A DNA stretch of 64,000 nt from an uncultured Christensenellaceae bacterium (GTDB lineage Bacteria; Bacillota; Clostridia; Christensenellales; UBA3700): assembly GCA_944383895.1 (NCBI GenBank), contig CALWRH010000002.1:183555-247554 (forward strand), in the 5' to 3' direction. The notes under the pieces were generated by a model. The model was not told where the DNA came from and did not search any database. It saw nothing but the letters and a program-made list of their open reading frames with translations. Shown here one piece after another: positions 9,584 through 52,883 of the stretch (position 1 is its first letter; the number at the start of each line of letters is the position of its first letter). The position numbers were made by a program, and so were the translations under genes.

Positions 9584-10126
9584 ATGTCGAGAATAGGTAG
9601 ACTTCCCGTAGTTCTTCCGCAGGGCGTAGAGGTAACGGTTTCCCCCGAGAACCTCGTAACCGTAAAAGGACCCAAGGGTACGCTCCAGAGACAGATAGAC
9701 AAGGCTATCACCGTTAAAGTCGAGAACGGCCACGTCGTCTGCACCAGAGAGAGCGATGAAAAAGAAATCAAATCCAAGCACGGTCTTTACCGCAAGCTTA
9801 TCTTCAACATGGTAGAAGGCGTAACCAAAGGATTCCAGAAGGGTCTTGTGGTAAACGGCGTCGGTTACAGAGTTGTAAAGCAGGGTAACAAGGTCGTTCT
9901 GAGCATAGGATACTCTCACAATATCGAAGTTCCCGAGACTGACGGCATCACGCTCGAAGTTCCGTCCGAAAAAGATATTATCGTAAAGGGTATCGACAAC
10001 GAAAAGGTCGGACAGACAGCTGCCAACATCAGAGCTCTTCGCAAGCCCGATCCCTACCATGCGTACGGTATCCGTTACAGCGACGAAGTGATCGCACGCA
10101 AGGAAGGCAAGAAAGGCACGAAGTAA
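9584..10126 (+). CDS. rplF: 50S ribosomal protein L6
   Basis: A 180-residue L6 made of the usual two repeated domains. SRIGRLPVVLPQGVEV begins the protein and PDPYHAYGIRYSDEVIARKEGKKGTK is the classic L6 end. It lies near the sarcin-ricin loop and factor-binding site. Confidence 0.98.
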   Translation: MSRIGRLPVVLPQGVEVTVSPENLVTVKGPKGTLQRQIDKAITVKVENGHVVCTRESDEKEIKSKHGLYRKLIFNMVEGVTKGFQKGLVVNGVGYRVVKQGNKVVLSIGYSHNIEVPETDGITLEVPSEKDIIVKGIDNEKVGQTAANIRALRKPDPYHAYGIRYSDEVIARKEGKKGTK

Positions 10127-36200: not shown

Positions 36201-36785
36201 TTATTTATATGTGTTTATAATGCCTTTTGCGACTTCGAGCTTAGAAACGCATCTGTCCATCGCCTGTTTTTCTATGTATCTGTGAGCGTCCGATTCTGTC
36301 ATCTTGAGCACGTCTATGAGCAGCCATTTAGCGCGGTTTACGGCTCTTATCTCCTCCATTTTCTGTTGTACGGTATAGGCGGTCTTTTCGTATTTTCTCA
36401 TACGCTCTCTCGTTGCGCGTACCCAATCGAGAGCTTGCGTCACCATTTGCGGAGAAGAAGGTAGCGGCAGCGTGAGTACGCCGAAGTCGGTTACCTTTGC
36501 GTAGATCTCGGCATACAGCTCTCTGCGGACGAATAACAGCGCTACTGAATTTCTTTCCGAGCAAACGTCTATCGCAAGTTTTGCCGCGCGGTCGTCGGCG
36601 CGTGTGCCGTTTATCAGCACTACGTCGAATTCGCGCTCCAGCATAGCGCGTTTCGCCATCGCCGCGTCGCTGACTCTGACTACGGGGTCGAACGTGTTTT
36701 CGGGGAGCAAAGAGGACAGAGAAGAGGTGAACTTCTCCGTATCGGATACTATAAGTACGCTGTAAACACGTTCCTTAAAATCCAT
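36201..36785 (-). CDS. ANTAR-domain response regulator beside glnA
   Basis: 194 residues. The first ~120 resemble a receiver domain (VLIVSDTEKF; VVLINGTRADD). The usual phospho-acceptor position reads as Asn-Gly (LINGT) rather than Asp, so it may be a pseudo-receiver. A coiled region (RKYEKTAYTVQQKMEEIRAVNRAK) leads into the C-terminal ANTAR domain (AKWLLIDVLKMTESDAHRYIEKQAMDRCVSKLEVAKGII), which binds paired RNA hairpins and prevents termination. It is 23 bases after glnA in the same operon. Likely targets are the two leader hairpins at 41447 and 41658; this is inference. Confidence 0.88.
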   Translation of the reverse strand: MDFKERVYSVLIVSDTEKFTSSLSSLLPENTFDPVVRVSDAAMAKRAMLEREFDVVLINGTRADDRAAKLAIDVCSERNSVALLFVRRELYAEIYAKVTDFGVLTLPLPSSPQMVTQALDWVRATRERMRKYEKTAYTVQQKMEEIRAVNRAKWLLIDVLKMTESDAHRYIEKQAMDRCVSKLEVAKGIINTYK

Positions 36786-36808: not shown

Positions 36809-38038
36809 TTAAAGAGGCAGAACGTCGGCGCGGTTGCAGTACGCGTCGATCACTTCGCGGGGCAGACAAGCCGTATTGAAGGCACTGTCCTTTGCCGTTT
36901 TTATCGCGTCCTGCAGGCTTGAAGGCAGAGATGCGAATTTTGACAAAGTCGCTTTGTCGGCTGCATAAAGGTTGATGTTTGCAGGTTCGGGCAGCGGCAG
37001 CTTGTTTTCAAGACCGTGCAAACCTGCGTATATCAGAAGCGCAAACGCGAGATAAGGGTTTGCCGCAGCGTCGGGCGAGCGCAGTTCCGCACGTCTGAAT
37101 TCGCCCACAGCCGCAGGTATTCTTATGAGCTGAGAGCGGTTTTCTCCCGACCACGAGATGTAGCGAGGCGCTTTGTTGTTGCCGAGTCTTGCATAAGACT
37201 GCGCTGTGGGGTTGAGGAAAAGCGTTATGTCGCGTATCTTGTCGAGAATACCCGCAATGACGTAGGGGATGACCTGACCGTGCTTGCCGTCGCCGACAGA
37301 AATGTTTATATGAAGACCGTTACCCGGTGCGTTTTCGAGAGGTTTTGCAGAAAAATCCGCCCAAAGTCCGTTGCGTGCCGCGATAGTTTGTACTACGGAG
37401 CGGAAAGTCACCGCATTGTCCGCCGCAGTAAGCGCGTCGGAATAGCGGAAGTCTATTTCGTTCTGCCCGGGTCCTTCTTCGTGGTGAGAGCCTTCGGGCA
37501 GAATGCCCATTTCTTCGAGTGTAAGGCATATCTCGCGCCTGACGTTTTCGCCTCTGTCGAAAGGTGCGACGTCCATATATCCCGCCTTGTCGTAAGGGAT
37601 ATTAGTAGGATCGCCGTGCTCGTCCAGCCTGAACAGATAAAATTCCATCTCCGCGCCGAAGTTGAATGAATATCCTTTGGATCTTGCCGTTTCGATCGCC
37701 TTGATAAGAATACCTCTCGTGTCGCTCACGAAAGGCGAACCGTCGGGATAGGATACAGAGCAGAACATCCTGACGACTCTGCCGTGTTCCGGTCTCCAGG
37801 GCAATACGGTAAGAGTGGACGGATCGGGATGGAGAAAAAGATCGCTGTGCGCGACGTCGCCGAAACCTGCGATCGCGGACGCGTCTATCGCAATGCCGTA
37901 TCTGAAAACTCTTTCGAGTTCCGAAGGCATTACCGAGATGTTTTTCTGATTGCCGAATACGTCGCAAAACGCAAGACGTATGAATTTTACGTCTTCTTCT
38001 CTGACGTATTGAAGGACTTCGTTTGCAGTGTATTTCAT
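36809..38038 (-). CDS. glnA: type I glutamine synthetase, shortened C-terminus
   Basis: 409 residues from ATG 38038 (MKYTANEVLQYV), against about 440-445 for GSI-alpha. Active-site motifs are in place: GAEMEFYLF, GPGQNEIDF, NGLHINIS, NNKAPRYISWSGENRSQLIRIP and RRAELRSPDAAANPYLAFA. The adenylylation NLYDLP motif is not seen, as expected of the alpha type. The end stops soon after LPREVIDAYCNRADVLPL, without the usual EW..Y...V..WE tail that Firmicutes GS uses for feedback and GlnR contacts. It makes glutamine from glutamate and ammonia and sits 14 bases after the GXGXG gene. Confidence 0.93.
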   Translation of the reverse strand: MKYTANEVLQYVREEDVKFIRLAFCDVFGNQKNISVMPSELERVFRYGIAIDASAIAGFGDVAHSDLFLHPDPSTLTVLPWRPEHGRVVRMFCSVSYPDGSPFVSDTRGILIKAIETARSKGYSFNFGAEMEFYLFRLDEHGDPTNIPYDKAGYMDVAPFDRGENVRREICLTLEEMGILPEGSHHEEGPGQNEIDFRYSDALTAADNAVTFRSVVQTIAARNGLWADFSAKPLENAPGNGLHINISVGDGKHGQVIPYVIAGILDKIRDITLFLNPTAQSYARLGNNKAPRYISWSGENRSQLIRIPAAVGEFRRAELRSPDAAANPYLAFALLIYAGLHGLENKLPLPEPANINLYAADKATLSKFASLPSSLQDAIKTAKDSAFNTACLPREVIDAYCNRADVLPL

Positions 38039-38052
38039 AAAATCACCTTTTA

Positions 38053-38775
38053 TTAGTTTTCTACATACATGCGCTTGTAGGGGTTCGCGCTGTCGGGAGT
38101 TACGACCGTGAACGGAGAAGAGAGCACCTCGTCCGCGTTTATCCCGAATACCGAGCAAAACTCTTTTATATAGCTTTCGACAGACATCATGTCTTCGTTT
38201 GTCGCGGTTCTCGCGCTGACCTTGTCTGGGAAGATCACGCCGTCGGTTCTGCCTCTTAAAAAGACTTTTCCGCCGTGCATGCCCGCAAAAGGGAAGTTGC
38301 CCACTATGCGTTTGCCGTCATTGTTCAGACCGAGCACTACGATGAGTCCTCCTGCCTGGTATTCTCCGAGAAAGCTGCCGCATCTGCCGCCGATTATTAT
38401 CACGGGCAATTTGCCGAGGTACTCCTTCATATGGATACCTGCGCGGTAACCTGCATTGCCTTTTATATATATTTTTCCGCCGCGCATCGCGTAGCCGGGT
38501 GCGTCGCCCGCATTGCCGTGCACGATTATTTCGCCCGCGTTCATAGTGTCGCCTACGGCGTCCTGCGCGTTTCCGTGTACTATTATTTTTGCGCCGTTCA
38601 GGTACGCCCCGAGCGCGTTTCCCGGGGTACCGCTGATGTCTATCGTCTTATCCGACAGCCCTGCGCCTATAAATCTTTCTCCCACGCAGCCGATTATACT
38701 GCAACTTCCGCTTAAGGCGCGGAGGCTTTCGTTGAGAGATGCGTTGTCTGTCGTGCGCGCGTCTAATATATTCAT
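38053..38775 (-). CDS. glutamate synthase GXGXG-domain subunit (archaeal-type GltB3)
   Basis: 240 residues, matching the C-terminal beta-helix domain of large GltB. Repeated G-x-x-G motifs are clear (GTPGNALGAYLNGAKIIVHGNAQDAVG, GNAGDAPGYAMRGGKIYIKGNAGYRAG). In this split form the domain is a separate gene. It has no catalytic role and holds the enzyme together. It starts after AGGAGG. Confidence 0.92.
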   Translation of the reverse strand: MNILDARTTDNASLNESLRALSGSCSIIGCVGERFIGAGLSDKTIDISGTPGNALGAYLNGAKIIVHGNAQDAVGDTMNAGEIIVHGNAGDAPGYAMRGGKIYIKGNAGYRAGIHMKEYLGKLPVIIIGGRCGSFLGEYQAGGLIVVLGLNNDGKRIVGNFPFAGMHGGKVFLRGRTDGVIFPDKVSARTATNEDMMSVESYIKEFCSVFGINADEVLSSPFTVVTPDSANPYKRMYVEN

Positions 38776-38820: not shown

Positions 38821-40329
38821 TCAGAATTCTCCCGCATGCGCTACGCCGAGTATGGACAGCTCTTTTTCGTTGAGTCCTATACCGCGCAGCATAAGTCGGT
38901 TGCCTATCAGTGCCTCGATAGAATTGATTCCCATACCGCCCATTATCTCCATTATCTCGTGTTTCCACGCGGTAAGCAGGTTCACAAGACGGCGGCAGCC
39001 TTCTTCGGGATCAAGACGTTTTACGAGCTCGGGTCTTTGAGTAGCGATGCCCCAATTGCATTTACCGCTCTGGCAGTTGCGGCACATATGGCACCCCATT
39101 GCGATAAGCGCGGCGGTAGCTATATAGCATGCGTCCGCGCCGAGCGCGACTGCTTTTACTACGTCCGTAGAATTTCTTATGCTGCCGCCCACGACGAGAG
39201 AAACGTCGTTTCTGATGCCTTCGTCTCGAAGACGTCTGTCGACTGCTGCGAGCGCGAGCTCTACGGGTATGCCCACGTTGTCCCTTATACGGGTCGGAGC
39301 CGCTCCCGTGCCGCCCCTGAAACCGTCGATGGCAATTATGTCTGCGCCGCTTCGCGCGATACCGCTTGCTATTGCCGCGATGTTATGGACTGCGGCTATT
39401 TTTACGATAACGGGCTTTTTGTATTCCGTCGCCTCTTTGAGCGAGAAAACGAGCTGACGCAGATCTTCAATGGAATAGATGTCGTGATGAGGAGCGGGGG
39501 AGATCGCGTCCGAGCCTTCGGGTATCATCCTCGTGCGGGAAACGTCGCCGACGATCTTAGAGCCGGGCAGATGTCCGCCTATGCCCGGTTTCGCGCCCTG
39601 ACCCATCTTTATTTCGATAGCTGCGCCTGCCTCGAGATAATCTTTGTGCACGCCGAATCTTCCCGACGCGACCTGCACTATCGTATTTGCCCCGTAGCCG
39701 TAAAAGTTTTCGTGCAGACCGCCTTCGCCCGTATTGTAACAAGTGCCGAGCTGAGTCGCCGCGGCGGCGAGCGCGGCGTGAGCATTGTAGCTGATAGAGC
39801 CGTAACTCATTGCCGAAAACATTATCGGCAGTTCGAGAGTGAGCCTCGGGGGAAGATCGCAAATCAGGCGCCCGTGTTGATTCCGCTTGATTTCAGACGG
39901 CTTTTTGCCGAGGAATATGCGCGTTTCCATAGGCTCTCTCAAGGGGTCTATCGGAGGATTGGTTACCTGTGACGCGTTGATGAGAAGTTTGTCCCAATAT
40001 ACGGGATAGGGCTGAGGATTGCCCATAGAGGAGAGAAGTACGCCTCCGCTCCCTGCCTGTTTCATTATTTCCTTTATAGAATCGCCGCTCCAATTCGCGT
40101 TTTCTCTGAAGTCGCAATTGCTTTTGACTATTTTCAGCGCGTGAGTCGGACACGTTGCGACGCAACGCTGACAGTTTACGCATTTAGAGTCGTCAGACAA
40201 GACGTATCTGCCGTCTTTAGAGCGGTAGTGCACGCTGTACGAGCACTCATTGACGCAAAGACCGCAGTTCGTGCAGCGGCTCTCTCTTCTTTCCACTTCG
40301 TAACTCGGATATATATAATCTGCCTGCAT
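38821..40329 (-). CDS. glutamate synthase FMN/ferredoxin subunit (archaeal-type GltB2)
   Basis: 502 residues. An N-terminal bacterial-type ferredoxin domain with two 4Fe-4S motifs (CTNCGLCVNEC at about 20-30, CVNCQRCVATCP at about 51-62) is fused to the FMN-binding synthase barrel. Barrel features include PIMFSAMSYGSIS, GEGG, QGAKPGIGGHLPG and the 3Fe-4S cysteines CHMCRNCQSGKC (about 435-446). It converts 2-oxoglutarate plus ammonia (channelled from the amidotransferase) to glutamate, with electrons probably from ferredoxin. It overlaps the next upstream gene by three bases. Confidence 0.94.
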   Translation of the reverse strand: MQADYIYPSYEVERRESRCTNCGLCVNECSYSVHYRSKDGRYVLSDDSKCVNCQRCVATCPTHALKIVKSNCDFRENANWSGDSIKEIMKQAGSGGVLLSSMGNPQPYPVYWDKLLINASQVTNPPIDPLREPMETRIFLGKKPSEIKRNQHGRLICDLPPRLTLELPIMFSAMSYGSISYNAHAALAAAATQLGTCYNTGEGGLHENFYGYGANTIVQVASGRFGVHKDYLEAGAAIEIKMGQGAKPGIGGHLPGSKIVGDVSRTRMIPEGSDAISPAPHHDIYSIEDLRQLVFSLKEATEYKKPVIVKIAAVHNIAAIASGIARSGADIIAIDGFRGGTGAAPTRIRDNVGIPVELALAAVDRRLRDEGIRNDVSLVVGGSIRNSTDVVKAVALGADACYIATAALIAMGCHMCRNCQSGKCNWGIATQRPELVKRLDPEEGCRRLVNLLTAWKHEIMEIMGGMGINSIEALIGNRLMLRGIGLNEKELSILGVAHAGEF

Positions 40330-41423
40330 CAGTATTTGCCCTCCTGTACTCTGACTATTACGGGTTCTCCGCCTTCGGGAGCGCGGACGTTGACTGCGTC
40401 CGGTTCCAGCACCCTTATCGCCGCCTCTTCGCTTGCAATGAATACGCGGTCGTCTTTTTCCGCAACCACCATGGAGCGCAGTTTGAGTCTGTCGTTGAGA
40501 GCCATAAGTCCGCCCTCGAAACCGAGTATTATCGAGAAAGGACCTGTTACGAGCAGTCCCGAAAATACGTTTCTGAGGTAGGTCAGCCTCTCTCGTTCTT
40601 CAGGGGATTTACGTTCTATCGTCGACCAGAACGGCGCGGCGATGACGTTTGCCGTTTCCTCGAGAGTAAGCTTTTTGCGGCGGAGCAGATAGTCGGCTAT
40701 ATATGTGAATACTTCCGTGTCGGTCTGCAGAGTGCATTTGTATCCGTATGCCTCTATAAATCGGCGGTTTGCGTCGTAAGAGGAGATCTCGCCGTTGTGT
40801 ACGACTGTGAAGTCGAGAAGTCCGAAAGGATGCGCGCCGCCCCACCAGCCCGGCGTATTGGTCGGGTATCTGCCGTGTGCCGTCCAGCTGTAAGCGGAGT
40901 ATTCGTCAAGGCGGTAAAACTCGCCGACGTCCTCGGGGTAACCTACTGCTTTGAAAACGCCCATGTTTTTGCCGCCCGAAACGACGTAAGCGCCGTCTAT
41001 TTTTACGTTGATATGGATTATCGCGCGTGCCACGAATTCGCGTTCGTCTACCTGTGCGTCGGCTATGCGGGAGCGCAGAGGGGAAAGAAAATATCTGAAA
41101 ATAATAGGCTCGTCCGTGATCGCTGGGATCTTGCGTACGGGGATAGGTTCTGCTTTTACTATTTCGAATCCCTCTTTGAGATAGGTTTCGCACTCTTTTT
41201 TGCTTTCTTTGTCGTCAAAGAAAAGATGAAAGGCATAAAACTCAGCCATTTCCGGGTAAATACCGTAACCTGCGAATCCGCCGCCGAGACCGTTCGAGCG
41301 CTCGTGCATAGGAGCCATGCTTGCGACGATCTTCTCGCCGCTCATAAGATTTCCCTCTCTGGATATGACTGCGGAAACCGCGCAGCCCGAGGGTATTCTT
41401 ATCTGCCCTTCTTTTAGTAACAT
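40329..41423 (-). CDS. glutamate synthase amidotransferase subunit (archaeal-type GltB1, class II)
   Basis: 364 residues of the class II glutamine amidotransferase (Ntn hydrolase) fold: GLGGGFAGYGIYPE, RYPTNTPGWWGGAHPF, VVHNGEISSYDANRRF. The expected N-terminal catalytic Cys is at residue 14 (IPSGCAVSAV), so a 13-residue propeptide must be removed, or a different start used; no ATG lies at the Cys. It is the first gene of the operon, 24 bases after its leader terminator. Confidence 0.9.
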   Translation of the reverse strand: MLLKEGQIRIPSGCAVSAVISREGNLMSGEKIVASMAPMHERSNGLGGGFAGYGIYPEMAEFYAFHLFFDDKESKKECETYLKEGFEIVKAEPIPVRKIPAITDEPIIFRYFLSPLRSRIADAQVDEREFVARAIIHINVKIDGAYVVSGGKNMGVFKAVGYPEDVGEFYRLDEYSAYSWTAHGRYPTNTPGWWGGAHPFGLLDFTVVHNGEISSYDANRRFIEAYGYKCTLQTDTEVFTYIADYLLRRKKLTLEETANVIAAPFWSTIERKSPEERERLTYLRNVFSGLLVTGPFSIILGFEGGLMALNDRLKLRSMVVAEKDDRVFIASEEAAIRVLEPDAVNVRAPEGGEPVIVRVQEGKY

Positions 41424-41446: not shown

Positions 41447-41510
41447 TAAAAAAAAGACAAAGGCGCGTTTTTAAGGACAGTTATCCTCAAAAACGAACGC
41501 CTTTGCCCGT
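41447..41510 (-). promoter_or_regulatory. leader attenuator of the GOGAT-glnA operon
   Basis: Read on the minus strand, the transcript begins with AAACGGGCAAAGGCG, pairs with CGCCTTTGTC, and runs into eight T (41455-41448). The inner part is a second stem with a hexanucleotide loop (TAACTG) and a two-base bulge. This is a complete intrinsic terminator between promoter and first gene, so expression needs read-through. The lower stem is the same as in the leader of the divergent GSIII gene. Confidence 0.8.
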
Positions 41511-41517
41511 TTGACAG

Positions 41518-41547
41518 ATTATAGCACGGGCGTAATGCGGCAGTCAA
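41518..41547 (-). promoter_or_regulatory. promoter of the GOGAT-glnA operon
   Basis: On the minus strand, TTGACT (41547-41542), 18 bases, TATAAT (41523-41518) with an extended TGC. The start is near 41511, at the very foot of the attenuator hairpin. Confidence 0.85.
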
Positions 41548-41614
41548 CCGTAAACGCGAAAAAATCGCATTGAAATTTGAGTTAAAAAAATTTCAGCGAA
41601 GTTGTAAAAATCCG

Positions 41615-41643
41615 TTGACAAACAGAATAAGGTTTTGTATAAT
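41615..41643 (+). promoter_or_regulatory. consensus promoter of the GSIII-led operon
   Basis: TTGACA (41615-41620), exactly 17 bases, TATAAT (41638-41643): a perfect SigA promoter. Confidence 0.93.
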
Positions 41644-41657
41644 CCAAAACATAAATC

Positions 41658-41709
41658 AAACGGGCAATGGCGTCTATGGTAAAACATAGGCGCCATTGCC
41701 CGTTTTTAT
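41658..41709 (+). promoter_or_regulatory. leader attenuator of the GSIII gene
   Basis: A 20-pair stem (41659-41678 with 41685-41704, one T-G pair) closes a GTAAAA loop and runs into TTTTT. It begins CAAACGGGCAATGGCGTC. Being a full terminator about ten bases after the transcript start, it should block the operon unless antitermination occurs. Compared with the minus-strand leader, an A-T pair in the lower stem is flipped (AAGGCG/CGCCTT against ATGGCG/CGCCAT), so pairing is kept. Confidence 0.85.
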
Positions 41710-41729: not shown

Positions 41730-43823
41730 ATGCAAACGGTATCGGATTATTTCGGCAGTATGGTCTTTGACGACAGGGTAATGAGAGCGACGTTGTCTGC
41801 GGACGTATACAGATCTCTCAAAAAGACGATCGACAGGGGTGCGCAACTCGACATCTCGGTCGCCAATGCCGTTGCCAACGCGATGAAAGATTGGGCGGTC
41901 GCTCACGGCGCGACACACTATACGCACTGGTTTCAGCCTCTTACGGGCATAACCGCAGAAAAGCACGACAGCTTTATAACTCCCGCTCCCAACGGCAGCG
42001 TCATCATGGAGTTTTCGGGCAAGGAGCTTATCAAAGGCGAACCCGACGCGTCGAGTTTTCCTTCGGGCGGCTTGCGCGCGACTTTCGAGGCGAGAGGTTA
42101 CACCGCATGGGATCCGACGTCGTATGCGTTCATCAAGGGCAAGACTCTTTGCATACCCACTGCGTTCTGTTCGTACGGCGGTGAGGCTCTTGATAAAAAG
42201 ACTCCTCTGCTGCGTTCTATGGAGGCACTCAACAGACAGGCTATGAGGATATTGAAACTTTTCGGCAACACTGGCGTAAAGTGCGTGCGTACGTCTGTGG
42301 GACCCGAGCAGGAATACTTCCTTATAGATAAAGAGATGTACGACAAACGTAAGGATCTGATATATACGGGACGCACGTTGTTCGGCGCGAAACCTCCCAA
42401 GGGACAGGAACTCGACGACCACTACTTCGGCGTTATCAAACCGAGGGTAGAGGAATATATGGCGGATCTCAACGAAGAGCTGTGGAAACTCGGCGTGCTT
42501 GCCAAGACGGAGCACAACGAGGTCGCACCCGCACAGCACGAGCTTGCGCCGATATATTCGACGACCAATATCGCGACCGATCACAACCAGCTCACAATGG
42601 AGATAATGCAGAAAGTCGCGTCAAGACACGGGCTCGTATGTCTTTTGCACGAAAAACCTTTTGCGGGCGTTAACGGCAGCGGCAAGCACAACAACTGGTC
42701 CATGGCTACAGACAAGGGAGTAAACCTTTTGACGCCCGGAGAAACTCCGCATGAAAACGCACAGTTTCTGTTGTTTCTCTGTGCGGTGCTCAAAGCGGTG
42801 GACGATTACCAGGACCTTCTGAGAATTGCAGTCGCCACGGCAGGCAACGATCACAGACTCGGCGCAAACGAAGCTCCTCCCGCAGTACTTTCGGTATTCC
42901 TGGGCGACGAACTTACGGCAGTGCTCGAGGCAATAGAGAACGATAAGCCTTATTTCGGTAAAAAGAAAACGCAGCTCAAACTCGGCGTAGACGTGCTGCC
43001 TTTGTTCCAGAAAGACACTACCGATCGCAACCGCACGTCGCCGTTCGCGTTTACGGGCAACAAGTTCGAATTCAGGATGCTCGGATCTTCCAACAGCATA
43101 GCGTGCGCGAACATCATGCTCAATGCCGCCGTAGCGGAATCTCTGAAGCAGTATGCGGACAGACTCGAGGGCGTAGAAGATTTCAACACCGCGCTTCATC
43201 TCATGATAAAGAAGACGATCAAGGATCATAAACGCATAATCTTCAACGGCAACGGTTACGACGAGGCATGGATAAAAGAGGCGGAAAGACGCGGACTTTC
43301 AAACTACCGTACGACACCAGACTGCATGCCGCACCTTCTCGACAAGAAGAACGTGGATATGCTTACTTCGCAGGGTGTCTATTCGGAAACCGAGCTGAAA
43401 TCGAGATGCGACATAATGCTCGACAACTACTGCAAGGCGGTATTGATCGAGGCTGAAACCATGGTCGATATGGCGGAGAAACAGATAGTTTCCGCGGTAG
43501 AAAAATACGTTTCTAAAATTTGTGAAACGGCAATTACGAAGAAAAATTTTGCGGCTGATATTAGTTGCGATTATGAACACGGGCTCGTAAAAAAGCTTTC
43601 TGTTCTGATAGACAGGGCAGCCTCTTGTACGGGGGATCTGAAAGAAGCCGTCGTTCACGTCAGGGATTTTTGTGATATAATATCCGAGGCAAATTATATA
43701 AGGGACGAGATCCTGCCCAAGATGGGCGCGCTGCGCGCGGTCGTCGACGAGGCAGAAACCATGACTGCGGCTGAATATTGGCCTGTTCCGACTTACGGCG
43801 AACTGCTGTTCGGCGTCAGATAA
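41730..43823 (+). CDS. glnN: type III glutamine synthetase
   Basis: 697 residues, the normal length for GSIII. Typical segments: [15 protein letters not shown] at the start, [69 protein letters not shown] and [13 protein letters not shown]. It makes glutamine and is a second, unrelated-type synthetase beside glnA. It follows AAAAAGGAG and leads the rightward operon. Confidence 0.96.
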
Positions 43824-43838
43824 AAGGGGGACAAGACA

Positions 43839-45416
43839 ATGTGTTCGATAATGGCGTACTGTCGCGAGGACGCGCCGAGGGAAAAGTTTGAACAAGGCTT
43901 TTCCCGCACGGTTTCGAGAGGACCCGACGACAGCAGGATAATCGATACGGGCGCGGGGCTCATGGGTTTTCACAGGCTCGCGATAATGGGACTTACGCCC
44001 GACGGCATGCAGCCGTTTTCGCTCGGAAGCGATTATATAATCTGCAACGGCGAAATATACGGTTTTGAGAAGTTCAGAAAAGCGCTCGAGGGCAAATACG
44101 CGTTCAGGAGCGATTCGGACTGCGAGGTACTCCTGCCTCTCTATAAGGAGTACGGAACGGATATGTTCGCTATGCTGGACGCGGAGTTTGCCTGCGTTAT
44201 ATACGACGGAGAAAAAGGCAAATTCGTCGCTGCCCGCGATCCGATAGGCATAAGACCGCTGTTTTACGGCTATGACGAAACGGGTGCGATGATCTTTGCG
44301 AGCGAGGCGATAAACCTCGTCGGACTTACCGACAAGATCATGCCGTTTCCTCCCGGGTGTTATTTCGACGGCGGAAAGTTCGTCAGATACAGCGACGTCA
44401 CCGACGTAAAAGAGGTCAGCAAAGACGGAGTGGACGAGGCTTGCCGCAACATACGCGAAAAACTCGTCAGGGGCATAGAAAAAAGGCTTGTCGCGGACGC
44501 AAAGGTCGGATTTCTGCTCAGCGGAGGACTCGATTCTTCTCTCGTATGCGCGGTAGCTGCAAAAGAGAGCAAAGCTCCGATAAAGACATTTTCGATAGGC
44601 ATGAGCGGCGACGCGATAGATCTCAGATACGCACGCGAAGTCGCGGACTATATCGGCAGCGATCATACCGAAGTCATAATCACCAAAGACGACGTTATTT
44701 CTTCGCTCGAAACCGTGATCAGGACGCTCGGAACGTATGATATAACCACGGTAAGAGCAAGCATAGGCATGTACCTCGTCTGCAAGGCGATACACGAAAG
44801 CACGGATATAAGAGTTCTGCTTACGGGAGAGATTTCTGACGAGCTTTTCGGCTATAAGTATACCGATTTCGCACCGAGCGCGGAGGAGTTCCAGAAAGAG
44901 GCGCAGAAGCGCGTCAGAGAGCTGTATATGTACGACGTGCTGAGAGCCGACAGGTGCATATCCGTCAATTCGCTCGAGGCGAGGGTGCCTTTCGGAGATC
45001 TCGATTTTGTGAAATACGTCATGAGCCTCGATCCGAAGATAAAAATGAACGTATACGGCAAGGGCAAGTATCTTCTGAGAAAGGCGTTCGAGGGCGACTG
45101 GTTGCCGTACCCGATACTGATGAGAGAAAAGGCGGCGTTTTCCGACGCGGTAGGGCACTCGATGGTGGACCACCTCAAGGAATACGCAAACGGATATTAT
45201 ACGGATAAAGAATATGGAGAAAGACGCGCGCGGTATGCGCACGCGCGCCCGTTCACTAAAGAATCGCTGTTATACAGAGAGATATTCGAAAAATACTATC
45301 CGGGGCAGGCGGAAATGATAAAGGATTTCTGGATGCCCAACAAGAGCTGGAAAGGCTGCGACGTGGACGACCCGTCCGCGAGAGTGCTTTCCAACTACGG
45401 CGACAGCGGCAAATAA
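43839..45416 (+). CDS. asnB: asparagine synthase (glutamine-hydrolysing)
   Basis: 525 residues. The N-terminal glutaminase starts MCSIMAYC with catalytic Cys 2 and contains SRGPDDSR, GFHRLAIMGL and ICNGEIYGF. The C-terminal synthetase has the PP-loop LLSGGLDSSLVC (about 226-237) and RVPFGDLDFVKY. It makes asparagine from aspartate, glutamine and ATP. It starts 15 bases after GSIII. Confidence 0.95.
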   Translation: MCSIMAYCREDAPREKFEQGFSRTVSRGPDDSRIIDTGAGLMGFHRLAIMGLTPDGMQPFSLGSDYIICNGEIYGFEKFRKALEGKYAFRSDSDCEVLLPLYKEYGTDMFAMLDAEFACVIYDGEKGKFVAARDPIGIRPLFYGYDETGAMIFASEAINLVGLTDKIMPFPPGCYFDGGKFVRYSDVTDVKEVSKDGVDEACRNIREKLVRGIEKRLVADAKVGFLLSGGLDSSLVCAVAAKESKAPIKTFSIGMSGDAIDLRYAREVADYIGSDHTEVIITKDDVISSLETVIRTLGTYDITTVRASIGMYLVCKAIHESTDIRVLLTGEISDELFGYKYTDFAPSAEEFQKEAQKRVRELYMYDVLRADRCISVNSLEARVPFGDLDFVKYVMSLDPKIKMNVYGKGKYLLRKAFEGDWLPYPILMREKAAFSDAVGHSMVDHLKEYANGYYTDKEYGERRARYAHARPFTKESLLYREIFEKYYPGQAEMIKDFWMPNKSWKGCDVDDPSARVLSNYGDSGK

Positions 45417-45449
45417 ATCGAAAAAAATATATTTTGAGAGGCAATATAT

Positions 45450-46979
45450 ATGGAAAAAATTCTGGTACTCGATTTTGGTGGTCAGTACAATCAGCTCATA
45501 GCACGCAGAGTGCGCGAGCAGAACGTCTATGCCGAGATCAAGCCGTACAACAAGATCACGGCAGCCGAAATAGCTAAAGCGGGCTATAAAGGCATCATCT
45601 TCACGGGCGGACCCAACAGCGTTTACGAAGAGAGTTCTCCTCACTGCGACGCAGAAGTACTGAAGCTCGGCATCCCCGTACTCGGCATATGCTACGGCGC
45701 GCAGCTTACCGCATGGCTTTGCGGCGGCAGGATATGCAACGCGGGCTCTAAAGGAGAATACGGCAAGATCGAGCTTACCGTAAAAGACGACGTCCTTTTC
45801 GACGGCGTACCCGAAAAGAGCGTATGCTGGATGAGCCATACCGACTATATCGAAGAAGTTCCCGAAGGATTTACGGTAACCGCGACGACAGAGCATTGCC
45901 CCTGTGCGGCGATGACGGACGGCAAGAGCGTTTATGCGGTACAGTTCCACCCCGAGGTAACGCATACCGTATACGGCAAACGCATGCTGCACAACTTCCT
46001 TTATGCGATATGCGGCTGCGCGGGAGATTGGAAGATGTCGGATTTTGCAAAGGAATCCGTAGAAAAATACAGAAAACAGCTTGCAGGCAAAAAGGTACTG
46101 TGCGCGCTGAGCGGCGGTGTGGATTCGTCGGTCGCGGCAGTACTCCTGCACAAGGCGATAGGCTCTGATCTGACGTGCGTTTTCGTCGATCACGGTCTTT
46201 TGAGAAAGGACGAAGGCGACATGGTCGAGCGTACTTTCAAAAAGCGTTTCGACATGAACATAATCCGCGTCAACGCAGAGGAGCTGTTCCTCGAAAAGCT
46301 CAAAGGCGTAACAGAGCCCGAGAAAAAGCGCAAGATAATCGGAGAAGAATTTATCCGCGTATTCGAGCGCGAGGCGAAGAAGATAGGCAAAGTCAACTAT
46401 CTCGTACAGGGCACGATATATCCCGACGTCATAGAGAGCGGCGCGGGCGACGCGTCTACGATAAAGAGCCATCACAACGTAGGCGGACTGCCCAGCGTAA
46501 TAGACTTTGACGAAATAATAGAACCGCTCCGCGAACTGTTCAAGGACGAAGTGCGCGCCGTGGGTACAGAACTCGGCATCCCCGCCGACCTCGTATGGCG
46601 TCAGCCTTTCCCGGGTCCGGGACTCGCTATAAGAGTTATAGGGGAGATAACCAAAGAAAAGCTGGATACGCTGAGAGAGGCGGACGCGATCTTCAGAGAA
46701 GAGGTCGTAAACGCAGGTCTCGAGCGTACTACCAATCAGTATTTTGCAGTGCTTACCGATACGAGAAGCGTAGGAGTAATGGGCGACGCGAGAACTTACG
46801 GATACACGGTCGCGCTGAGAGCCGTCACGACAGACGACTTCATGACGGCGGACTGGACGCGCCTTCCTTACGATGTGCTTGAAAAGGCAAGCAGCAGAAT
46901 TACAAACGAGGTGAGGACGATAGGCAGAGTCGTCTACGACATCACCTCCAAGCCGCCCGCGACGGTGGAGTGGGAATAA
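45450..46979 (+). CDS. guaA: GMP synthase (glutamine-hydrolysing)
   Basis: 509 residues. Class I amidotransferase domain: [23 protein letters not shown] (nucleophile Cys) and [13 protein letters not shown]-PPase domain: [20 protein letters not shown] (about 215-234) and the dimerisation end [15 protein letters not shown] [12 protein letters not shown] and [10 protein letters not shown]. It converts XMP to GMP. Confidence 0.97.
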
Positions 46980-49700
<2,721 letters not shown>

Positions 49701-49708
<8 letters not shown>

Positions 49709-52700
49709 ACGTACAGATATAAAGAAAATACTCGTGATAGGCTCAGGTCCTATCGTTATAGGTCAGGCGGCTGAATTCGACTATGCGGGCACGCAGGCTT
49801 GTCTTGCGCTTAAAGAAGAAGGCTACGAGGTAGTGCTTTGCAACTCCAACCCCGCGACGATAATGACGGATACGTCCATAGCGGACAAGGTATATATGGA
49901 GCCGCTTACCCTTGAATATATCGCCAAGATAATACGCTACGAGCGTCCCGACGCGATAATCCCCGGCATAGGCGGACAGACGGGACTCAACCTTGCGATG
50001 CAGCTCGAGAAGAAAGGCATTTTGAGAGAGTGCCGCGTTGAACTTCTCGGCACCAACAGCAAGAGCATTGAAAGAGCCGAGGACAGAGAACTGTTCAAAG
50101 AACTCTGTCAGTCGCTCGGAGAGCCCGTACTTCCTTCAGAGATAGCAAATTCTGTAGAAGAAGGACTCAAAGCAGTTGCGGATATCGGTTATCCCGTAGT
50201 GCTCAGACCCGCATTTACGCTGGGCGGCACGGGCGGCGGTTTCGCGGACAACGAAGAGGAGTTCCTCGAGATAATCAAAAACGCGCTTGCGCTTTCGCCC
50301 GTACATCAGGTCCTCGTTGAAAAGAGCATAAAGGGATACAAAGAGATAGAGTACGAAGTCATGCGCGACGCCAACGATACCGCGATAACCATCTGTAACA
50401 TGGAAAACCTCGACCCCGTCGGCATACACACGGGCGACTCCATAGTTGTATGCCCGTCGCAGACGCTGACAAACAGAGAGTATCACATGCTGAGGGACAG
50501 CGCGCTCAAAATAATAAGAGCGCTTGAGATAAAGGGCGGTTGCAACGTGCAGTTCGCGCTCGATCCCAAGTCTTTCCAATATTATCTGATAGAAGTAAAT
50601 CCGCGTGTTTCGCGTTCTTCCGCGCTCGCGTCCAAGGCAAGCGGCTATCCGATAGCGCGCGTTTCGGCAAAGATAGGCGTCGGCATGAACCTCGACGAGA
50701 TAATGCTCGCAAATACCCCCGCGTCTTTCGAGCCTTCGCTCGACTATGTCGTTACCAAGATGCCGCGTTTCCCGTTCGATAAATTCGCGGACGCCAACAA
50801 CAGGCTCGGCACGCAGATGAAAGCTACGGGCGAAGTCATGAGCGTAGGCAGGACCTTCGAAGAGAGTCTTCTCAAGGCAGTACGTTCTCTCGAAACGGGC
50901 GTAAACCACGTCTATATGGCAAAATTCGACGATATGGACAAGGCTGCGCTAATGGATTATATAAAGATAGGCACAGACGACAGAATATACGCGATAGCGC
51001 AGCTCTTCCGCCTCGGTGCGACAGAAGAGGAGATCAACGCGGCTACCGCGATAGACGATTTCTTCCTGCACAAGATAAAGCATATCGTAGAGATCGAGAG
51101 ATCTCTCGCTAAGACGGGCGCGACCGCTGAGGCAGTGCTCGAGGCAAAGCGTTTCGGTTTCTCCGACAAGACGATAGCGAAGTATTGCAAAATAAGCGAA
51201 TCAGACGTCAGAGCGGTGCGTGAAAAGAACGGCATAAAACCCGTCTACAAGATGATAGACAGCTGCGCGTCCGAGTTCGAGAGCTATATACCTTATTTCT
51301 ATTCGACTTACGAGCAGGAAAACGAATCCGTAGTATCCGACAAGAAAAAAGTCGTCGTGCTCGGCAGCGGACCTATCCGTATAGGTCAGGGTGTAGAATT
51401 CGACTATTCTACCGTGCATGCCGTAAAGACGATTAAAAAAGCGGGATTTGAGGCAATAATAATAAACAATAACCCCGAGACGGTTTCTACCGACTACACG
51501 ACTTCGGACAAACTTTACTTCGAGCCGCTTTGCGTAGAAGACGTAATGAACGTCATTGACATGGAGCAGCCTATCGGAGTCATCGCCTCTCTCGGCGGTC
51601 AGACAGCGATAAACCTTGCAGAGCCGCTCAGTCAGCGCGGAGTCAAGATAATCGGCACAGACCGCGACGCGATAGAAAAGGCAGAAAACCGTGACGCGTT
51701 CGAAAAACTGCTTTCAGAACTCAAAATACCTCAGCCTAAAGGCAGAGCGGTCACGAAGATAGAAGACGGCATCGCCGCGGCAAAAGAGATAGGCTATCCC
51801 GTGCTCGTGCGCCCGAGTTTCGTGCTCGGCGGCAGAGCAATGAGAATTGTTGCGAACGAAGAACAGCTGCGCCACTATCTCAAGACGGCAGTCGAGATAG
51901 ACGAGGACAAACCCGTGCTCGTAGATAAGTACATTAAGGGTAAAGAAGTCGAAGTCGACGCCGTATGCGACGGCAAAGACGTGTTCGTCCCCGGCATAAT
52001 GGAGCTCGTAGAACGCACGGGCGTGCACTCTGGCGACTCGATAAGCGTCTATCCGTCTTTCTCTATATCGCAGAAAGTCAAGGACGTTATCCTCGATTAT
52101 ACGCAGAAACTCGGCAAAGGCATCGGAATCGTAGGCCTATACAATATACAGTTCATAGTCGACAAAGAAGACAACGTGTTTATCATTGAGGTCAACCCGC
52201 GTTCTTCGCGTACCGTACCCTTCCTTTCAAAAGCTACGGGCTACGATCTCGCGGACATAGCTACGCTCGTCATACTCGGCAAGAGTCTGAAAGAGCAGGG
52301 CATAACTTGCGTGTATCCCGAAGAAAAGAAACGTTGCTACGCAAAGGCTCCGGCGTTCTCGTTCTCCAAACTGCGCGGCATGGATTCATACCTCTCCCCC
52401 GAGATGAAGTCGACGGGCGAGGCGATAGGATACGACAAGAGCCTTACGAGAGCACTCTATAAAGCGTTGCAGGCGTCGGGCGTAAAGGTGCAGAATTACG
52501 GCACCGTGCTCGCCACGATCGCGGACGACGACAAAGAAGAGGCACTGCCACTCATCCGCAGGTTCTACAATCTCGGTTTCAATATCGAGGCGACCGAAGG
52601 TACGGCAAAATTCCTCAAGAATCACGGCATAAAGACTCGCATAAGAAAGAAGATAAGCGACGGTTCGACGGATATTCTCGATTCAATACGTCAGGGGTAT

Positions 52701-52883
52701 GTCACCTACGTCATCAACACGAGGGACGTAAGGAGCGAGAACAGGATATCGGACGGCTCGGCTATAAGACAATGCGCGATCGAGAACAACGTGACCGTGC
52801 TGACAGCGCTCGATACGGTCAGAGCTCTCCTCGACGTTCTCGAAGAGATAACGTTAAGCGTTTCCACGATAGACGCTCAATAA
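49701..52883 (+). CDS. carB: carbamoyl-phosphate synthase large subunit
   Basis: 1060 residues in two homologous halves. Each starts with an ATP-grasp unit preceded by a [19 protein letters not shown] motif ([41 protein letters not shown] at about 550), and the C-terminal MGS-like allosteric domain follows (about 930-1060). It makes carbamoyl phosphate for pyrimidines and arginine. Confidence 0.98.

Follow-up and report, generated by a model that had tools for sequence, protein, structure and literature searches.

Background: ANTAR targets with two hexaloops

The RNA targets of ANTAR antiterminator proteins carry a six-base loop with A at position 1 and G at position 4 (A1/G4), closed by a C:G pair (PMC3369931, PMC7496416; here and below, citations refer to the portions of these papers that were accessible). 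As described there, the targets are dual, with two such hairpins termed P1 and P2 (PMC3369931, PMC8164766). Mutation of P1 or alteration of the linker in EutV leaders causes antitermination to be lost or reduced (PMC3369931, PMC8934654), and both EutV and NasR require P1 for full binding or antitermination (PMC3369931, PMC7496416). With respect to binding, NasR recognizes a single hairpin weakly, at about 12 uM (PMC7496416); for EutV, binding to an isolated P1 or P2 hairpin is about as strong as to the dual RNA (PMC8934654). In the revised definition of Walshe et al. (2022; PMC8934654), one hexaloop is the smallest motif that is bound, while two remain necessary to prevent termination. They suggested that lone hexaloops might occur in settings free of the time limit that a moving polymerase imposes, and called for work on the extent of their importance. 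AmiR of Pseudomonas aeruginosa has been called a pseudo-receiver ANTAR protein (PMC3369936).

The two leaders presented here resemble the eut, nasF and amiE targets (of EutV, NasR and AmiR) in their A1/G4 hexaloop, C:G closure and short stem, in the overlap of the loop and 3' stem with an intrinsic terminator, in the nitrogen genes that follow and in the presence of an ANTAR gene in the genome. The difference is that the eut, nasF and amiE targets consist of P1 and P2 joined by a short linker, both being needed for full function, whereas here one hexaloop lies at the predicted 5' end or close to it. Target genes and logic are the same as in the ANTAR-linked glutamate/glutamine synthase leaders of Firmicutes in the accessible account of Ramesh et al. 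(2012; PMC3369931); their model requires two hairpins, however, and places one-hexaloop leaders outside its definition. The same holds for the published covariance searches, since these, as far as the accessible portions describe them, demand two hairpins (PMC3369931, PMC8164766). A literature search, mostly without subscription papers, returned nothing on ANTAR leaders with a single hexaloop or on control of glnN by ANTAR proteins. Judged from the sequence, both leaders are very probably transcription attenuators that have one hexaloop and are controlled by ANTAR.

Divergent nitrogen operons

The leaders were found in a 64,000-nucleotide stretch of DNA from an uncultured member of the Clostridia, referred to in its entirety as the window, where the promoters of two nitrogen operons stand back to back. 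On the forward strand, the first gene behind the leader is glnN, encoding glutamine synthetase type III (GSIII; 41730..43823; GSIII_N, E 4.8e-81), followed by genes for an asparagine synthase (43839-45416; Pfam Asn_synthase) and a GMP synthase (45450-46979; Pfam GMP_synt_C), with more genes in the same direction beyond. From 41730 to 52883, a single leader is followed by a same-direction run of glutamine-linked genes, namely glnN, asparagine synthase, guaA and then pyrG-, carA- and carB-like ORFs, the last three named by eye. On the reverse strand, the GOGAT glutamine amidotransferase subunit (40329..41423; PF00310) comes first, followed by the GOGAT synthase-domain subunit with 4Fe-4S domains (38821..40329; PF01645, E 9.9e-140), the GOGAT GXGXG-domain subunit (38053..38775; PF01493) and glnA, encoding glutamine synthetase type I (GSI; 36809..38158; Pfam Gln-synt_C and Gln-synt_N), which likely has a later start codon than listed. 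The last gene of this operon (36201..36785) encodes a pseudo-receiver-ANTAR protein of 194 amino acids (PF03861, E 2.8e-14), the candidate regulator. Pfam supplied the identities of GSIII, the three split GOGAT subunits, GSI and the ANTAR protein. Among named records, the closest is a metagenome assembly of Christensenellaceae, whose GSIII is 94% identical.

Promoters and terminators of the two leaders

An initial annotation of this DNA had proposed that each operon starts with a consensus promoter followed directly by a terminator hairpin, and this description holds. The glnN-operon promoter, TTGACA-17-TATAAT (41615..41643, forward strand), matches the sigma-70 consensus at 12 of 12 bases and is kept in relatives. 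The promoter of the GOGAT-glnA-ANTAR operon, TTGACT-18-TATAAT (41547-41518, reverse strand), matches at 11 of 12; its -35 box TTGACT lies at 41542..41547 (read 41547-41542) and its -10 box TATAAT at 41518..41523, with a spacer of 18 nt. In both leaders, a hairpin and T-run follow the promoter within 5-18 nt. The intrinsic terminator of the glnN leader (41659..41707, forward strand; stem 41659-41704, T-run 41703-41707) has a folding energy of -39.5 kcal/mol (z -10.1) and is both conserved and covarying among relatives, while that of the GOGAT leader (41447..41508, reverse strand; stem about 41508-41455, T-run 41454-41447) has one of -32.9 kcal/mol (z -7.3). For each, 0 of 200 shuffles folded as well.

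In the 1.85 Mb home genome, a search pattern running from the foot shared by the two hairpins to the terminator hit both leaders and one other site, as did a pattern combining the -10 box with the foot. Inspection of other genomic foot sites, covering both exact matches and three of the 20 with one mismatch, revealed none that was leader-like; one of them (L007) has a small hairpin but is without a T-run. Within the window, Rfam at gathering scores found one tRNA and no other family. The GlnR/TnrA box has the form TGTNA-N7-TNACA. Although the terminators are inverted repeats, as would suit a DNA operator, no box of this type was found near the leaders, its sole exact match in the window being at 9874, and the element does not recur across the home genome as a dispersed repeat would. 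A DNA operator or dispersed repeat instead of an RNA element is accordingly the most improbable of the alternatives, with next to no weight given to it.

The hexaloop and the alternative fold

The common foot, GGGC[AAWGGC]GYY, is a C:G-closed hexaloop (in brackets) with A1 and G4 present in both leaders. In the glnN leader, the antiterminator hairpin GGGC[AAUGGC]GUCU spans 41662..41675 on the forward strand, with the hexaloop at 41666-41671, A1 at 41666 and G4 at 41669; it is homologous to a covarying hairpin in relatives. In the GOGAT leader, the antiterminator hairpin AAACGGGC[AAAGGC]GUUCGUUU spans 41491..41512 on the reverse strand, with 8 bp and the hexaloop at 41504-41499. This second hairpin begins 5 nt past the -10 box, which locates it at about the predicted transcript start, and shows no differences among the eight genus genomes of that type, own included. 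The closing C:G pair together with A1/G4 corresponds to the rule obtained for NasR by SELEX (PMC7496416).

These features revise the initial annotation, which had stated that neither loop fits A1/G4 and that a variant rule may apply. The loops AAUGGC (forward) and AAAGGC (reverse), each flanked by pairing stems, obey the known rule; they were missed because the hexaloop was sought at the terminator tip although it is located in the foot, and the free tips of the two hairpins are the terminator apices. The true departure from the described targets is that there is one hexaloop only. The annotation had also described a common foot, its complement and a compensatory A-T flip between the hairpins. 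The foot and the flip, which falls on hexaloop position 3, stand, but the full complement is confined to the forward leader: in the reverse leader's terminator, CAAAC is unpaired and GGGC is partly paired, via G-U.

Being part of the 5' arm in both terminators, the hexaloop is paired in the terminator fold and is a loop in the alternative antiterminator fold. When growing 5' fragments were folded from the assumed start, the hexaloop hairpin was the earliest structure to appear, by nt 22 (reverse) and nt 26 (forward), and by the same computation gave way to the terminator at about nt 50-54 and nt 42-46, respectively. As a counterpoint, the antiterminator of the forward leader is weak, with 4 bp including two G-U pairs and an energy of -1.7 kcal/mol.

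Covariation of both folds in relatives

GSIII and GOGAT amidotransferase genes were sought in 59 genomes from genus to order, and 107 upstream regions from 52 genomes were read (71 GSIII, 36 GOGAT; the GSIII fragment G044:C32 was left out). The initial annotation would have been refuted by relatives that keep the genes without the hairpin; 62 leaders, 33 before glnN and 29 before GOGAT, were found in 35 of the 52 genomes (own included), 51 by scan and 11 by looser criteria. With near-duplicates and awkward ends omitted, the hexaloop-hairpin alignment comprises 47 of the 62 and the terminator alignment 38. In the antiterminator stem, 82.6% of cells are paired versus 64.8% in shuffled alignments, with a covariation score of 0.618 versus 0.280 and at most 0.220 for slid versions; both-sided changes occur in four of six pairs (with stems such as UAGC/GCUA, CAGC/GCUG, CAAC/GUUG, GAAC/GUUC, AGGC/GUCU), and the closing C:G pair is present in 47 of 47. 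In the terminator, 95.2% of cells are paired versus 83.5% shuffled, the score is 0.458 versus 0.219 and both-sided changes occur in five of 11 pairs. Since these mutually exclusive helices each covary, both look to be under selection.

Statistics from the training leaders are inflated, as their selection required A1/G4, A2 and a minimum of 3-4 bp in the stem; for this reason, a terminator-only model and a loop-agnostic scan were also employed. The covariance model encodes the terminator pairs alone but still favours A1, A2 and G4. Among 396 genomes of the order, it matched in 87 genomes from 49 of 142 genera. The home genome was missed at E 0.01, meaning that the model undercounts; a home-genome match at C2:29803 (E 0.096) is without G4 and was discarded. 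In unseen genomes, outside the model, there were 73 matches in 56 genomes (63 distinct), with 79.9% of antiterminator cells paired versus a shuffled mean of 64.5% and maximum of 70.1%. Twelve of these were removed by eye, ten because the following gene appeared unrelated or could not be assigned a name and two as antisense-strand readings. The 61 retained (51 distinct) are 84.0% paired versus 66.2% shuffled (maximum 71.9%) and at most 53.6% when slid. Stems of at least 4 bp occur in 59 of the 61, and A1 and G4, letters that the model favours, in all.

The loop-agnostic scan considered only the flanking stem letters at 76 named glnN loci. It returned 103 six-nt loops versus 0-1 for each of seven other lengths, and 90 of the 103 have A1 and G4; position 3 is A in 41, T in 23, G in 21 and C in 18. 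The 13 other loops comprise seven that resemble the terminator 3' arm, two G1 variants, three ambiguous cases and one (L289) that overlaps the stem of the same locus's own A1/G4 hairpin. At L288 and L290, the hexaloop has G at position 1 with G4 kept, and the terminator 3' arm of L290 has the matching C (by eye). A scan for promoter plus hexaloop found the leader at 55 of the 76 named loci and failed at 21, and a scan for hexaloop plus terminator failed at 13.

One hexaloop instead of two

Of the 187 leaders collected (183 distinct, with four duplicates), 182 (178 distinct) have a recognisable promoter, and 11-12 of 12 promoter bases are matched in 156 of 186 leaders compared with 0 of 186 shuffles. 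Were the leaders of the usual two-hexaloop ANTAR kind, with P1 hidden because, for instance, transcription starts farther upstream, they would conform to the dual targets of the accessible literature (PMC3369931, PMC8164766) and to two-hexaloop relatives that exist before glnN and amt in the phylum. In the 182 promoter-bearing leaders, however, A1 lies just 9-34 nt (median 15) past the -10 box. With the start placed 6 nt or more past the -10 box and promoters sought within 45 nt upstream of the hexaloop, 13 of the 182 have room for a minimal P1. Scanning these 182 promoter-proximal leaders revealed no genuine P1, the sole P1-like call (L218) being that leader's true hexaloop. Nor was a P1 found in the 60 nt upstream of nine further attenuators chosen by eye from the 76 named glnN loci, which stand at a greater distance from a promoter and would have space for one, several of them behind gdhA-like genes (by eye); since the chance rate of a P1 in such 60-nt stretches is 10.5%, this result denotes absence and not depletion. 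A hidden P1 is, on this evidence, unlikely. Among the nine, a promoter lies about 48 nt upstream of L267, and L259, L270 and L292 are preceded by another element of this or a similar kind.

Two-hexaloop leaders seen in the phylum are L299, with gtgaaac[AAAGGC]gtttcac before glnN, L310, with ggtgc[AGTGCT]gcacc before amt, and perhaps L304. As the P2 loop of L299 and L310 is the same as that of the one-hexaloop class, the latter is best seen as a variant of the family. With no P1 found, the leaders are filed as a one-hexaloop variant that is predicted to work like the dual-hexaloop family.

Elements also occur in tandem, with two, and once three, in series at 25 of the 76 named loci, 55-138 nt apart and once 172, in a scan that missed some elements (L229 and L288, by eye). 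Serial hexaloop-terminator cassettes precede glnN at L018 and L020 (close relatives), L223, L237, L243, L256, L271 and others. Upstream of glnN at L220, L229, L232, L235 and L255 are hexaloop attenuators without a nearby promoter; since they sit behind the C-terminus of a glutamate dehydrogenase-like ORF (by eye), they are apparently intra-operon. In the glnA-like leaders L309, L314, L321 and L323, an aRgggc[AAGGRT]gtcctt hairpin is located about 36 nt before a second hairpin, making them a long-linker dual or tandem form.

Co-occurrence with ANTAR genes

The ANTAR protein encoded 4.7 kb away had been put forward in the initial annotation as the one RNA-binding antiterminator of both leaders. 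This candidacy is strengthened: its gene is the sole ANTAR match in the home genome (94% complete), and ANTAR genes co-occur with the leaders. Across the 396 genomes of the order, an ANTAR gene is found in 81 of 87 genomes with a leader match versus 89 of 309 without (odds ratio 33; P 8e-29, nominal given that the genomes are related), and across 398 genomes of the phylum in 41 of 42 versus 161 of 356. As a counterpoint, 89 of the 170 ANTAR-bearing genomes of the order are without a model match. In ANTAR-less relatives, the leader is on 0 of 11 GSIII genes read, only four of which belong to the leader-bearing subfamily. In ANTAR-bearing relatives, it is on 31 of 45 GSIII genes of that subfamily (56% identity or more) and was not found at the other 14, several being second copies. 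Among GSIII paralogues of 53% identity or less, 0 of 22 read have the element. One of the 22 is a second GSIII of the home genome itself (L103; G000:C3:44209-44869), 52% identical and without a leader.

G+C-rich hairpins can stabilise RNA. The leaders could in principle be fixed terminators or 5' stabilisers without ANTAR regulation, given strong hairpins with U-tracts right behind the promoter. Such elements would not account for a second, mutually exclusive fold that covaries, for A1 and G4 being mostly kept while the paired position 3 varies freely, for the strong ANTAR co-occurrence or for the 22 element-free paralogues, and we hold this explanation to be very unlikely.

The candidate regulator protein

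A model of the 194-residue ANTAR protein (mean pLDDT 88.8) resembles RNA-bound EutV (6ww6_B, TM 0.76), AmiR and Rv1626. Among 31 aligned proteins, the RNA-contact positions are occupied by Lys149 in 31, Glu160 in 31 and Met172 in 30, while the Tyr164 position is His in 28 and Tyr in three; other EutV contact residues are partly changed (by eye). The roles of these residues come from the accessible account of EutV (PMC8934654), and the residue mapping, with a two-residue numbering offset, is our own.

At the phospho-Asp position of EutV, the window protein has Asn59; the 31 aligned proteins have Asn in 30 cases and His in one, and a comparison set of 27 other ANTAR proteins, the readable ones among 30 retrieved, has Asp in 20 and Glu in seven. 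With the receiver lacking the EutV-type phospho-acceptor Asp, the signal probably reaches the ANTAR protein by contact with a protein or ligand, as in AmiR, and not from a kinase. The likeness to AmiR extends to the presence of a pseudo-receiver, coiled coil and ANTAR domain and to His at the EutV Tyr164 position. The difference is that AmiR is held by the amide sensor AmiC, whereas here the gene just upstream encodes a glutamine synthetase. The combination of a pseudo-receiver and a neighbouring glnA suggests that sensing occurs by contact, with glutamine synthetase as a possible partner. NitR of solvent-producing Clostridium (Stutz et al. 2007) reportedly also combines an ANTAR gene adjoining glnA with nitrogen leaders.

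Proposed mechanism

The layout, the covariation of both folds, the lack of P1 in the scanned regions, the ANTAR co-occurrence and the nitrogen regulon together point to an attenuator with three parts: a promoter, a single hairpin with an A1/G4 hexaloop that lies at the predicted 5' end or close to it, and a terminator with the hexaloop in its 5' arm. As the polymerase leaves the promoter, the GC[AAWGGC]GY hairpin would, by computed folding, form first. Once the 3' arm is transcribed, the far stabler terminator would displace the hairpin and end transcription after about 54-67 nt. In response to nitrogen state, the ANTAR protein would bind the hexaloop and block the terminator, allowing the polymerase to enter both operons. 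Because the ANTAR gene is at the end of one controlled operon, the circuit would be self-reinforcing.

Such an attenuator conflicts with the two-hexaloop model unless one of three circumstances applies: this ANTAR family has good affinity for one hexaloop, a hexaloop at the 5' end leaves the protein enough time, or one dimer is shared by two RNAs. The existence of solitary leaders speaks against the last. Its specific form, in which one ANTAR dimer uses the two divergent hexaloops together, in trans, as its P1 and P2, draws on the many genomes with divergent glnN and GOGAT leaders and on the suggestion by Walshe et al. of contact with two nascent RNAs (PMC8934654, accessible portion). It is nonetheless quite improbable: the glnN leader of one genome (G020) is on a different contig from its GOGAT leader, that of another (G024) lies about 370 kb from it, and asnA, carA and pyrG leaders are partnerless in the stretch read (G027, G019).

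For the one-hexaloop attenuator, we lean somewhat towards a broader reading in which a single hexaloop suffices when it is the polymerase's first structure. The promoter-hexaloop-terminator cassette, often two in series, would then be the standard switch for nitrogen genes across a wide range of Clostridia, run by a pseudo-receiver ANTAR family that may read the adjoining glutamine synthetase, and the two-hexaloop rule would be one solution instead of a definition. The many conserved one-hexaloop attenuators here sit under exactly the time limit raised by Walshe et al., and such short natural leaders make the sufficiency of one hexaloop testable. The proposal bears on how many uncultured and cultured Clostridia may set ammonia assimilation and glutamine use.

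Predicted regulon and distribution

The leader search in related genomes that the initial annotation had recommended gave matches before glnN, glnA, GOGAT, asnA, carA, pyrG, guaA and amt. The genes next after matches include GSIII, GOGAT (split and full-length), glnA, asnA, pyrG, carA, guaA, purB, amt and P-II; for names beyond the blastp references, at least one example per kind was checked and the rest were assigned by eye. The predicted targets are thus mostly enzymes of ammonia assimilation and enzymes that use glutamine. The 61 retained unseen matches precede GSIII in 31 cases, GOGAT amidotransferase in 13, full-length gltB-like genes in two, and glnA, asnA, guaA, carA, pyrG and purB in one each; in the remaining nine, the ORF that follows is truncated or unnamed, and several of these nine have a divergent partner next to them.

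In five genomes, a leader lies directly behind the ANTAR gene and before pyrG (one pyrG checked, four by eye). These extra one-hexaloop leaders are L204, L205, L207, L208 and L209, the checked pyrG being that of L204. At L169 and L180 (genomes G175 and G102), CAAC[AAWGGC]GUUG with a terminator but without a clear promoter precedes an oppB-like permease gene, possibly as a further target or by chance. Among cultured species, the leader was found by scan in Merdimmobilis hominis, Mediterraneibacter agrestimuris and Neglectibacter timonensis, and with a weaker promoter in Massiliimalia timonensis. In Anaerotignum lactatifermentans, GGGC[AAAGGC]GTCT was recognized by eye, below the promoter cut-off of the scan.
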